A DNA stretch of 64,000 bases from Thermoanaerobacter sp. A7A (GTDB lineage Bacteria; Bacillota; Thermoanaerobacteria; Thermoanaerobacterales; Thermoanaerobacteraceae). Positions 34,153-40,339 of this stretch are shown piece by piece; the stretch's first letter is position 1; every line of letters starts with the position of its first letter. Location of the stretch: positions 1-64,000 of the forward strand of contig NZ_AVAF01000171.1 of the NCBI RefSeq assembly GCF_000445185.1, read 5' to 3'. The notes under the pieces were generated by a model, which saw only the letters and a program-made list of their open reading frames with translations, was not told where the DNA came from and made no database searches. The translations under genes and the position numbers were made by a program.

Positions 34153-35586
34153 CTACTCCTTCACTATTTTATCTAATAGTACTGCTGCTTCTTCTCGGGT
34201 CAAAGGCTTTTTAGGATAAATGTATATTTTACCATCTATATTGGTACCAGATATTAAATTATTCTCATAAGCTTTTTTAATGAAATCATATGCCCATGGT
34301 GAAATGTCATTTTTGTCTGCAGGATCAAAAAAGGCAAAATCAACATTCTCTTCTGGCTCATAAAATTTCATAATAACGCTAATGGCTTCTTCTCGCGTTA
34401 TGGGATTATGAGGTTTAAAAGAGTTATCCTCGTATCCTTCCATAATTCCATTATTTACTATATTTGCAATAGGTTTATAATACCATGCATTTTGAGAAAC
34501 ATCTTTGAAGGAAATTTCTTGCTGCAATGTCGGTTTATCTTTTAAAAATGCTCTGTCTATCAAAGAAGCAAATTCTGCTCTAGATATAATTTTGTTTGGC
34601 CTAAAAGATCCGTCTTCATATCCTGCAAAAATCCCTTTTATTACCGAACTAAGTATATTCTTTTCAGACCACATATTTTTAATATCCCAAAAGGGAATAA
34701 ACCCTGTATCCTTACTCAACTTATTTATTTTTTCAACAATGTCTTGACCTGTATCGGAATCCTTCACAGTAATTCTTTTTAATTTCATAATATTATCGCC
34801 ATAATAATTTACTCCTTCTTTAGTGCTAAATGCCATCTCAAAACCTACTTTTTTTGCTATCTCGTCGCTTATTTCATTTCCTGAACCAAAAGGATATGCT
34901 AAACATATAGGCGCTTTACCTATTTTTTCTTTAATTATTTCTCGTGAGCGCAAGAAATCTAGATAAAGCCTTTCTTTATACTGTTCCATTGTTTCAAGAT
35001 GTCCATCAATGATTACAGGTCCCATTACCATTGGGATTTTCTTAAAATCATTTGACCTGTAACCGTGGAGGTCATATGTGTGACTCTCAATCTCTATTAC
35101 TCCGCTGTCTGCCATTTCTTTTGCTTGTTGCTACGTAAAATGCGGTATAACAACTTCGGGTTTTTGCTTGTTTACTTCATCTGGCACATAACTTACTATA
35201 ATATTTATTTCAGCTTTCATTCCTAATTTTTTAAGTATAGGATATGCATACGTGTAATTGCTTAAATATCCGTCATCAAAAGTTATTACAATAGGTTTTG
35301 GTGGCAAAGGCTTGTTGTACAGTACAAAATCTCTGAGCTGTTCTAAAGTTATAGTGTGATATCCTGCCGCTTTAAGGTAAAGCATTTGCTTTTCAAATCT
35401 TTCTGGGTCGATTATCACACCACCATACTTTTTAGAATCAAATGTACCTTCTTTTTGAAGGTGATGGTACATTAAAACAGGCACAAATGGCTTTTTAGAT
35501 TGTGCCTTTGAATGTAGCACTGGAATTGATACAGCAAGTACAATTGTTACCATGATTGTAAGGATGATTAACGCTTTTTTGCTCAT
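34153..35586 (-). pseudogene. Polysaccharide deacetylase with C-terminal SLH domains, interrupted by one in-frame TAG (35131-35133)
   Basis: FVPVLMYHHL...PIVITFDDGYLSNY...VVIPHFT*QQAKEMADSGVIEIESHTYDLH; both halves in the same frame. Confidence 0.9.
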
Positions 35587-35842
35587 GTTTTCCAACCTCT
35601 CACACAAATTTATCATAAATATATCACATAATTATCACAAATATGTTACAAAAAAGTTAACAAAACATTAAATTTTTTATAAAAGAAATATTTGTAATTA
35701 TGAGCCAAGTTTTCTTTTTCTGTAATTATGAGGAGTGCAAAGTACTCAGAAGAATCCCCAAGCCCAAAAAAAGATTATAATAAAATGAAAATTCCCTTTT
35801 GTTATGGTATAATTTATACAAAAAGACAAGCAGGAGAAGGAT

Positions 35843-37642: not shown

Positions 37643-40339
37643 ATGAAGAACCTCAAAAAGTTAATAGCAGTGGTTCTCACATTCGCATTGGTGTTCAGTG
37701 CGATGGCAGTAGGTTTTGCTGCAACGACACCGTTCACCGATGTGAAAGATGATGCACCTTATGCATCAGCAGTGGCTCGTCTGTATGCTCTAAACATTAC
37801 AAATGGTAATACAGACGGCACATATGGCGTAGATCAGCCAGTTACAAGAGCCATGATGACTGTTTTCGTAAACAGATTATCTGGCTACAGAAATTTAGCT
37901 GAAATGGCTAAAAATGATGCACCGGCTTTCAAAGATGTTCCAAAGAATTACTGGGCAATTGGTGACATCAACTTGGCAGCAAAACTTGGCCTTACACATG
38001 GTGTAGGCAATGGCATGTTTGCTCCAGAAGAAAAAGTAACATATGCACAAGCTCTTGGCTTCATGCTCAATGCCCTTGGCTATAAGAATCTCTCATGGCC
38101 ATATGGCGTTGTTGCTCAAGCACAAAAACTCGGTCTGACAACGGGTATAAATCGTGGCTTCAATGATGTGATAAACCGTGGCGATCTTGCAATTATAATG
38201 AACAGGGCTTTAGATTGTACTGTTGTAAGTTATGATGCAAACGGGAACATTGTAGTAGATCCTAATACAGGATTGCCAAAGGGACAAACATTGTTGGCAT
38301 CAGGTTTAACATATCTTGGATATACCCAAATAACAGGTGTAGTTACAAATGTAACTGCAACACAGGCTACAGTGGGTTCAACGACTGTTAATGTTGGTTC
38401 TGTTGACTTTAAGTCATTGATAGGACAAAATGTAACGGTTTATGTGAAAAACGGTACTGCACTTATAGCGGTTCCAACTGGCAATACAATAATCACAACA
38501 ACACAAATTACTAATAGTACAGTAGCTGGAACAATATACTATGTTGCATCTGATAATACAGTAAAAACGATACCTGTAGCAGATAACAATGTAGTGATCT
38601 ACAATGGCCAAAATATAGGTAAATTATCTGACAGTGTTAATAACAAACCCAATGTGACTACGATAGCAAATTCCTCAGCAACCTTAATTGACAATAACAA
38701 TGATGGCAAGGTTGAATATATCATTGCAACTGGATATGCTGCTCCTGAAAAGATTAGATTTATTGATGCAACAAATAAGGTAGTATATGCTAATGGCACA
38801 TACAATTTGGGAGCTGCGAATGTAACTTACACAATTACGAAGAATGGAAAAGCAGCAACATTTGCTGATTTAGCAGTTGGAGATGTGATTCAAGTAGCAG
38901 CATCACCTGATGGAACGATCTATCAAATACTTGCATCAAGTAACACAGTGACAGGCAAAGTAGTAGAAGTAAAACCATTAACCAAGACTATTAAATTGGA
39001 CAATGGCGTAGAATATGGATTTGCAACAGGGGCACAAGTATCTACCAGTTCCTTTACAGCGGGTAATACTTACACATTGTATCTTGACAGCAATGGCAAG
39101 ATATATGATGCGAAGTTGGTAACAGCAACCTATGCTGCTAATTATGCATATGTAGTAAATAAAGGTAAAGTAACAGATGCATTTGGCAATGCAACATACA
39201 AATTCCAAATTGTCAAGCCGGATGGAACCACAGCAGTATATGATTTAGTAGATAATGTAACAGCTTATAATGGAACAACTGTATCTACTAATGTTTACAA
39301 CGATATTTGGTCAGTTACTACAGTACCAGCACCAATCACATATGATGTAAATGCTAATGGTCAGTTTACAAATGTATCGCCAGTAACATTGCCTGTTTCT
39401 GGCAGTGCTAGTGTAGATCAAACGAACAAGACTCTTACTATTGGAACAACCACTCAGAACCTACCATACGGGTATTACGGAGAACCGGGTAAAGTGTATG
39501 TAGACAGCAGCGGCAGGGGATTAATTAAGGGTAATATCAACCGCAAAGGAGAGAAAATTTACCATATTCCTGGAGATCCATGGTATGACAAAACAAAAGC
39601 GCAGGTATGGTTTAAAACAGAGGCAGAGGCGCAGGCAGCAGGATTTAGACCGCCGAAAACGAACAAGACTCTTACTATTGGAACAACCACATACTATGTA
39701 ACAGACAGTACAGTAATTTATCAAGTATATAATGGTACTGTAAAACCGATTAAATTTGCTGATATAGGAACAGGTAACAAAGCAGTTAAACTTTCCACAA
39801 CAGGTTCATTCAACCAAGTACAATATCTGCAAGTGAATGATGCAATAGCTCCAATAACAACTGGAACAGTTGGTGTATACGAAGGATATGCATTAGTTGC
39901 TGGCGGATACAAACTTTATGTAAATGTGAGTGGAACAGATACTGCTTATACAGTATTAACTAGTGCACCACCTACAACAGCTCCATTTGCATATGGGGAT
40001 ATCATTACCTTTGGTGTAGATTCTAATGGAAATGCAACGAATCCTGCAAAAGTTGATGTAACAACATTAGTAAATGGTGAAGTATATGCAATTAGCAATA
40101 CATTCATCAATATTGGAGGAACTGTAAAACCATTAGATCCAGCAGTTAAGATATTTAAACTTGTGAAAGATACAAGTGGTAACGTAACGGGTGTGACAAC
40201 AGCAAGCTTTGGTGAAATAGTGCCGCAACAAACTGGTACTGATGCTAATGGTAATACAATTGTATATGTACATGGCTCAAATGTTAATGCATATGTTGAT
40301 GCTACGAGCGGCAAAGTTACTATAATAGTAATTCAATAA
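37643..40339 (+). CDS. S-layer protein with N-terminal SLH domains
   Basis: signal peptide, TPFTDVKDDAPYASAVARLYALNITNGNTDGTYGVDQPVTRAMMTVFVNRL and further SLH repeats. Confidence 0.93.
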   Translation: MKNLKKLIAVVLTFALVFSAMAVGFAATTPFTDVKDDAPYASAVARLYALNITNGNTDGTYGVDQPVTRAMMTVFVNRLSGYRNLAEMAKNDAPAFKDVPKNYWAIGDINLAAKLGLTHGVGNGMFAPEEKVTYAQALGFMLNALGYKNLSWPYGVVAQAQKLGLTTGINRGFNDVINRGDLAIIMNRALDCTVVSYDANGNIVVDPNTGLPKGQTLLASGLTYLGYTQITGVVTNVTATQATVGSTTVNVGSVDFKSLIGQNVTVYVKNGTALIAVPTGNTIITTTQITNSTVAGTIYYVASDNTVKTIPVADNNVVIYNGQNIGKLSDSVNNKPNVTTIANSSATLIDNNNDGKVEYIIATGYAAPEKIRFIDATNKVVYANGTYNLGAANVTYTITKNGKAATFADLAVGDVIQVAASPDGTIYQILASSNTVTGKVVEVKPLTKTIKLDNGVEYGFATGAQVSTSSFTAGNTYTLYLDSNGKIYDAKLVTATYAANYAYVVNKGKVTDAFGNATYKFQIVKPDGTTAVYDLVDNVTAYNGTTVSTNVYNDIWSVTTVPAPITYDVNANGQFTNVSPVTLPVSGSASVDQTNKTLTIGTTTQNLPYGYYGEPGKVYVDSSGRGLIKGNINRKGEKIYHIPGDPWYDKTKAQVWFKTEAEAQAAGFRPPKTNKTLTIGTTTYYVTDSTVIYQVYNGTVKPIKFADIGTGNKAVKLSTTGSFNQVQYLQVNDAIAPITTGTVGVYEGYALVAGGYKLYVNVSGTDTAYTVLTSAPPTTAPFAYGDIITFGVDSNGNATNPAKVDVTTLVNGEVYAISNTFINIGGTVKPLDPAVKIFKLVKDTSGNVTGVTTASFGEIVPQQTGTDANGNTIVYVHGSNVNAYVDATSGKVTIIVIQ
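39420..39453 (+). repeat. 34-bp perfect direct repeat, left copy
   Basis: aaacgaacaagactcttactattggaacaaccac. Confidence 0.98.
39657..39690 (+). repeat. 34-bp perfect direct repeat, right copy
   Basis: identical to 39420-39453, offset 237 bp (79 codons). Confidence 0.98.

Follow-up and report, generated by a model that had tools for sequence, protein, structure and literature searches.

An S-layer protein gene in a draft Thermoanaerobacter genome (178 contigs, 2.61 Mb) is interrupted in frame by a 203-bp insert that encodes a small domain, known as sunset, and lies between two identical 34-bp direct repeats. This insert is a real, well-resolved scar of domain capture and looks like a fresh record of a domain's transfer from one protein to an unrelated one. 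Small domains like sunset end many unrelated bacterial proteins, ribosomal ones included, and their arrival is rarely visible; at this locus, one can still make out which family the donor belongs to, what the empty target looks like, where the joints lie, and which stretch of the target was duplicated. Most likely, a single illegitimate insertion, at two junctions, of DNA from a family of metallo-beta-lactamase (MBL)-fold genes produced this arrangement and duplicated 34 bp of the target. The coordinates of the features (Table 1) refer to the window, that is, the entire stretch of 64,000 nucleotides that was analysed.

Table 1. The interrupted S-layer gene and the parts of the insertion (window coordinates)
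Feature	Position	Strand	Remarks
S-layer protein gene, interrupted in frame by the insert	37643-40339	+	898 aa, ORF; two SLH domains, Pfam SLH E 3.3e-26; orthologs
34-bp direct repeat, left copy; encodes TNKTLTIGTTT	39420-39453	+	
203-bp insert with homology to the C-terminal tail of congeners' ComEC-like MBL-fold genes	39454-39656	+	right end ambiguous by 2-3 bases
Sunset domain core (NF051437), IKGNINRKGEKIYHIPGDPWYDKTKAQVWFKTEAEAQAAGFRPPK	39524-39658	+	
34-bp direct repeat, right copy	39657-39690	+	

The two repeats are spaced by 237 bp, that is, by 79 codons, and both lie within the single open frame of the S-layer gene, exactly as described in an earlier reading of this DNA from sequence alone (hereafter, the sequence-only reading). 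With the CRISPR array excluded and apart from this pair, exact direct repeats within 3 kb reach 15 bp at most, and the maxima in ten first-order Markov sequences are 13-17 bp; thus, the 34-bp repeat is not a chance occurrence. A search of the genome that allowed up to 2 mismatches detected no further copy of the 34-bp motif. The 0/34 mismatches between the repeats limit the divergence of the two copies to about 9% at most (95%, rule of three), compared with approximately 20% DNA divergence from the sister gene in G007, so that the recent age proposed in the sequence-only reading can be upheld only loosely. The insert is indeed richer in GC than the S-layer gene (46.3% vs 37.8%), but the contrast is modest because the richest 203-bp stretch of the gene itself reaches 45.8%. 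Downstream of the insert, 226-228 residues of the S-layer protein follow. Elsewhere in the window, the CRISPR array occupies positions 1-1750 and consists of 30-bp repeats (GTTTTTAGCCTACCTGTAAGGAATTGAAAC) with a period near 66 bp; on the minus strand, a pair of same-frame ORFs separated by 15 bp (34153-35616) looks like a single polysaccharide deacetylase with SLH domains that an in-frame stop has divided.

Comparison of the S-layer gene with its orthologs reveals a true contrast between a filled and an empty site. In the protein alignment, 7/7 orthologs (L010, L012-L017) contain a single strand of the TNKTLTI..TTYYVTD type and lack the insert, in line with the empty site in relatives that had been anticipated. 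When one unit is deleted, the S-layer protein matches its counterpart from G007 over the full length, with 81% identity, which bears out the claim that a smooth S-layer sequence is restored. At the DNA level, the BLASTN alignment with G007 is interrupted exactly at the insert, stopping in CAAACGAACAAGAC and restarting in ACCACATACTATG. Because all seven orthologs lack the insert, it was gained either in the source lineage or in the lineage that supplied the S-layer allele.

Alignment with L010 shows the S-layer gene to be a mosaic: at 38200-38600, a block is nearly identical to G007, and the stretches on either side of it are only about 70-80% identical. This pattern suggests that S-layer alleles have recombined. 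Such mosaicism is what would be expected if the allele, already carrying the insert, had been imported whole by homologous recombination from a strain in which the insertion took place earlier. We consider this route unlikely given that no second carrier was found among the genomes searched; moreover, it merely shifts the insertion event to another lineage.

The insert matches the NCBIfam model 'sunset' (NF051437) over 42/42 positions, with an E value of 2e-22 and a score of 79 bits against a cut-off of 27, and thus consists of the sunset domain and a 23-residue N-terminal extension. Elsewhere, this domain is the C-terminal tail of thermonucleases, DNA/RNA non-specific endonucleases, phospholipase D-like proteins, and others, which confirms the original assignment of the insert to the tails of secreted nuclease-like proteins; NCBIfam also includes sunset-carrying variants of the ribosomal proteins L4, L17, L20, and S2 and of ArfC. 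In the S-layer protein, unlike in these hosts, the domain is internal. In Pfam, the insert shows a weak resemblance, under the cut-off (E 0.08), to the Ada metal-binding domain. The tail of a thermonuclease-like lipoprotein (L134, G005:C25), IGNRNSKIFHYPDC...FESREEAIKAGYRPCKVCRP, matches the sunset model and has the cysteines of Ada-type metal-binding domains, a hint that sunset might be a relative without the metal ligands, which it would have lost. The structure model of the sunset domain is of fair quality, with pLDDT values of about 80-90 for residues 21-80, and no PDB fold matches it at E < 0.001; by sequence, the sole PDB match (8crx, E 7e-5) is to a ribosomal protein L4 that carries a sunset tail. 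The model of the S-layer protein, built from a single sequence, is unreliable (mean pLDDT 36). A literature search for 'sunset domain' returned nothing relevant.

The closest copies of the insert are the C-terminal tails of secreted ComEC-like MBL-fold proteins of Thermoanaerobacter and its family. Members of this group (G005, G002, G013, G015, and G016) share with the insert the same 68-aa tail, including the QSLPYGYYGEPGKVYVDSSGRG extension, with 93% protein identity to G005; unlike them, the S-layer insert comes without the MBL enzyme, the stop codon, and the linker. At the DNA level, the insert is 88.7% identical to G005, 88.2% to G002, and 89% to a fragment in G001, that is, it differs from the nearest donors by 11-12%, whereas the tails of G005, G002, and G001 are 92-93% identical to one another and their enzyme cores just 74-79%. 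From these alignments, the insert derives from the ComEC-like MBL gene family at a congener-level divergence, and a lost tail of its own lineage is as possible a source as a foreign donor. Loss of this tail is common: G005 and G002 have the donor-type domain, which is decayed in G001, G003, and G008, and frameshift, deletion, or truncation has disrupted the tail in G001, G002, G003, and G008. The genome with the insert encodes one MBL gene of the ComEC-like type (L039 / L042, G000:C119), which adjoins a DUF3006-like gene as it does in the relatives. This gene lacks the sunset tail: its reading frame stops directly behind the enzyme core, and a TnpB-type gene follows.

The edges of the donor homology coincide with the edges of the repeats. 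The DNA match to the G005 donor opens at base 35/271 of the query, the first base past the left repeat, and closes at CCGAA, where the right repeat starts. On the donor side, homology ends 1-2 codons short of the stop (G005 has two left: CCT AAG AAA TGA), so that the insert corresponds to the domain from the end of the Ser/Thr linker to just before the stop codon. At the right junction, two or three A's are shared, a microhomology that makes the exact joint ambiguous.

Junctions with microhomology only, a duplicated target, an empty site in relatives, and a donor elsewhere are the marks of illegitimate insertion, and the S-layer locus displays all of them. The flanking duplication is better read as the scar of a single insertion of this kind. 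Under this scenario, natural transformation, or else a tail or gene copy that the same lineage has since lost, would have supplied a 203-bp piece of a Thermoanaerobacter ComEC-like MBL-fold gene. Two non-homologous junctions would connect this piece to the S-layer gene, having arisen, most likely, when a staggered break (offset nicks) was repaired or when backward template switching occurred at a replication fork. Copying of the 34 bases that separate the cut or switch points would have placed them on both sides, yielding the direct repeats. The duplicated stretch would provide the conserved predicted beta-strand of the target on either side of the insert, so that the S-layer fold could be completed with either copy, leaving the domain as a bulge. 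Because the insert is a whole, stop-free domain on the right strand and in the right frame, with the predicted beta-strand duplicated on both sides, the S-layer frame would have stayed open and the allele would have survived. The insert, its flanking duplication, the empty sites, the donor family, and the precise agreement of the homology edge with the repeat edge are direct observations; the repair or transformation mechanism and the tolerance of the protein are what we infer from them. The coincidence of the insert with a complete domain is a counterpoint, given that a blind mechanism by itself would not predict it; selection for an open, foldable insert could explain this coincidence. A further counterpoint is the 11-12% difference from the nearest donors, which means that none of them is the actual source.

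The domain might instead be an assembly or library artefact that brought other DNA of the sample into the contig, a concern raised by the division of the draft into 178 contigs and by a contamination estimate of 1.48%. However, two chimeric joins would be needed, both keeping the strand and the frame, and the donor MBL core is absent elsewhere in the assembly. Furthermore, in each of two independent pairs of contig ends, exactly 40 bp are common to both ends (short contigs, masked as N runs, are uninformative in this comparison), a hint that the assembler required overlaps of about 40 bp, more than the 34 bp of the repeat. An artefact is, accordingly, improbable.

The sequence-only reading favored a mobile protein-domain cassette and proposed a search for the same cassette with other flanking duplications elsewhere in the genome. 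Several features of the locus would fit a dedicated mechanism that moves sunset, be it such a cassette or a recombinase that leaves long duplications of the target: the insert comprises one domain exactly, sunset is attached to many unrelated proteins, including the L4, L17, L20, S2, and ArfC variants, and the target duplication is long. Nevertheless, both the domain, present solely in the S-layer gene, and the 34-bp motif are single-copy in this genome, and neither terminal inverted repeats, nor a hairpin, nor a linked recombinase was found. Among about 180 other sunset loci (80 named genome loci, 27 from a 399-genome phylum sample, and 73 viral contigs), the domain is C-terminal almost everywhere, that is, its usual place is as the last domain of the gene. 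The exception is a divergent sunset-like domain in VirB6/TrbL-like membrane proteins of G007, G008, and G015 (L130, L131, and L133), where it lies 74-86 residues from the C-terminus; these proteins probably belong to conjugative elements. No flanking repeats, exact or inexact, above the control were detected at 173 of the other loci: the best ungapped repeat between the left and right flanks scores 13, equal to the maximum of the mispaired controls, compared with 34 at the S-layer insert. This result argues against frequent recent movement of sunset but not against all movement, because older duplications would have decayed. The search for phage or plasmid carriers of a close copy of the insert retrieved distant ones only, and the best match among the viral contigs (L162) is once more a gene for an MBL-fold protein with a tail at the C-terminus. 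We therefore regard a dedicated mechanism as very unlikely, and the more specific proposal, that a DNA mechanism spreads sunset among unrelated proteins by copying a domain-sized piece and duplicating a target of about 34 bp, with the S-layer locus as the first undecayed footprint, as highly improbable.

Known classes of small elements were considered as well. An insertion sequence or MITE was rejected: there are no terminal inverted repeats at the ends of the insert, as originally stated, no dyad symmetry or hairpin within it (folding is no better than that of shuffled sequence, z 0.59), and no transposase among the ORFs around the insert site, and the insert is present in a single genomic copy. 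Moreover, target-site duplications of such elements are typically 2-14 bp, a range that the 34-bp duplication exceeds. An element of the Rickettsia palindromic type was dismissed for the lack of dyad symmetry and of in-frame copies in several genes, and off-target CRISPR spacer integration by Cas1-Cas2 for reasons of size: such an event would place a spacer-sized insert between duplications of repeat length, whereas the insert measures 203 bp and the local CRISPR repeats, about 30 bp long, recur with a period near 66.

Thermoanaerobacter species are naturally competent (PMC4857275), which offers a path for the incoming DNA. In this genetically tractable genus, direct tests could address both how the domain was captured and what the capture does to the S-layer. 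The S-layer locus is a single case and does not demonstrate a general mechanism. Among known systems, Rickettsia palindromic elements similarly form short in-frame insertions in unrelated protein genes, but these are palindromic and multicopy, whereas the S-layer insert is single-copy and non-palindromic and encodes a known folded domain (PMC10969869). PARCEL coding repeats, too, are modules of coding sequence that have spread to surface proteins, probably horizontally; they differ in being tandem palindromic 25-residue repeats rather than a single non-repetitive domain (PMC2996958). For an insertion by illegitimate joining, which we favor, a parallel is the integration of DNA segments by double illegitimate recombination in the course of natural transformation, described from Acinetobacter selection experiments (Hulter and Wackernagel 2008, as cited in PMC8116780). 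There, too, a segment is inserted at two junctions with little homology; the Acinetobacter case comes from selection experiments, whereas the S-layer case is deduced from a genome.
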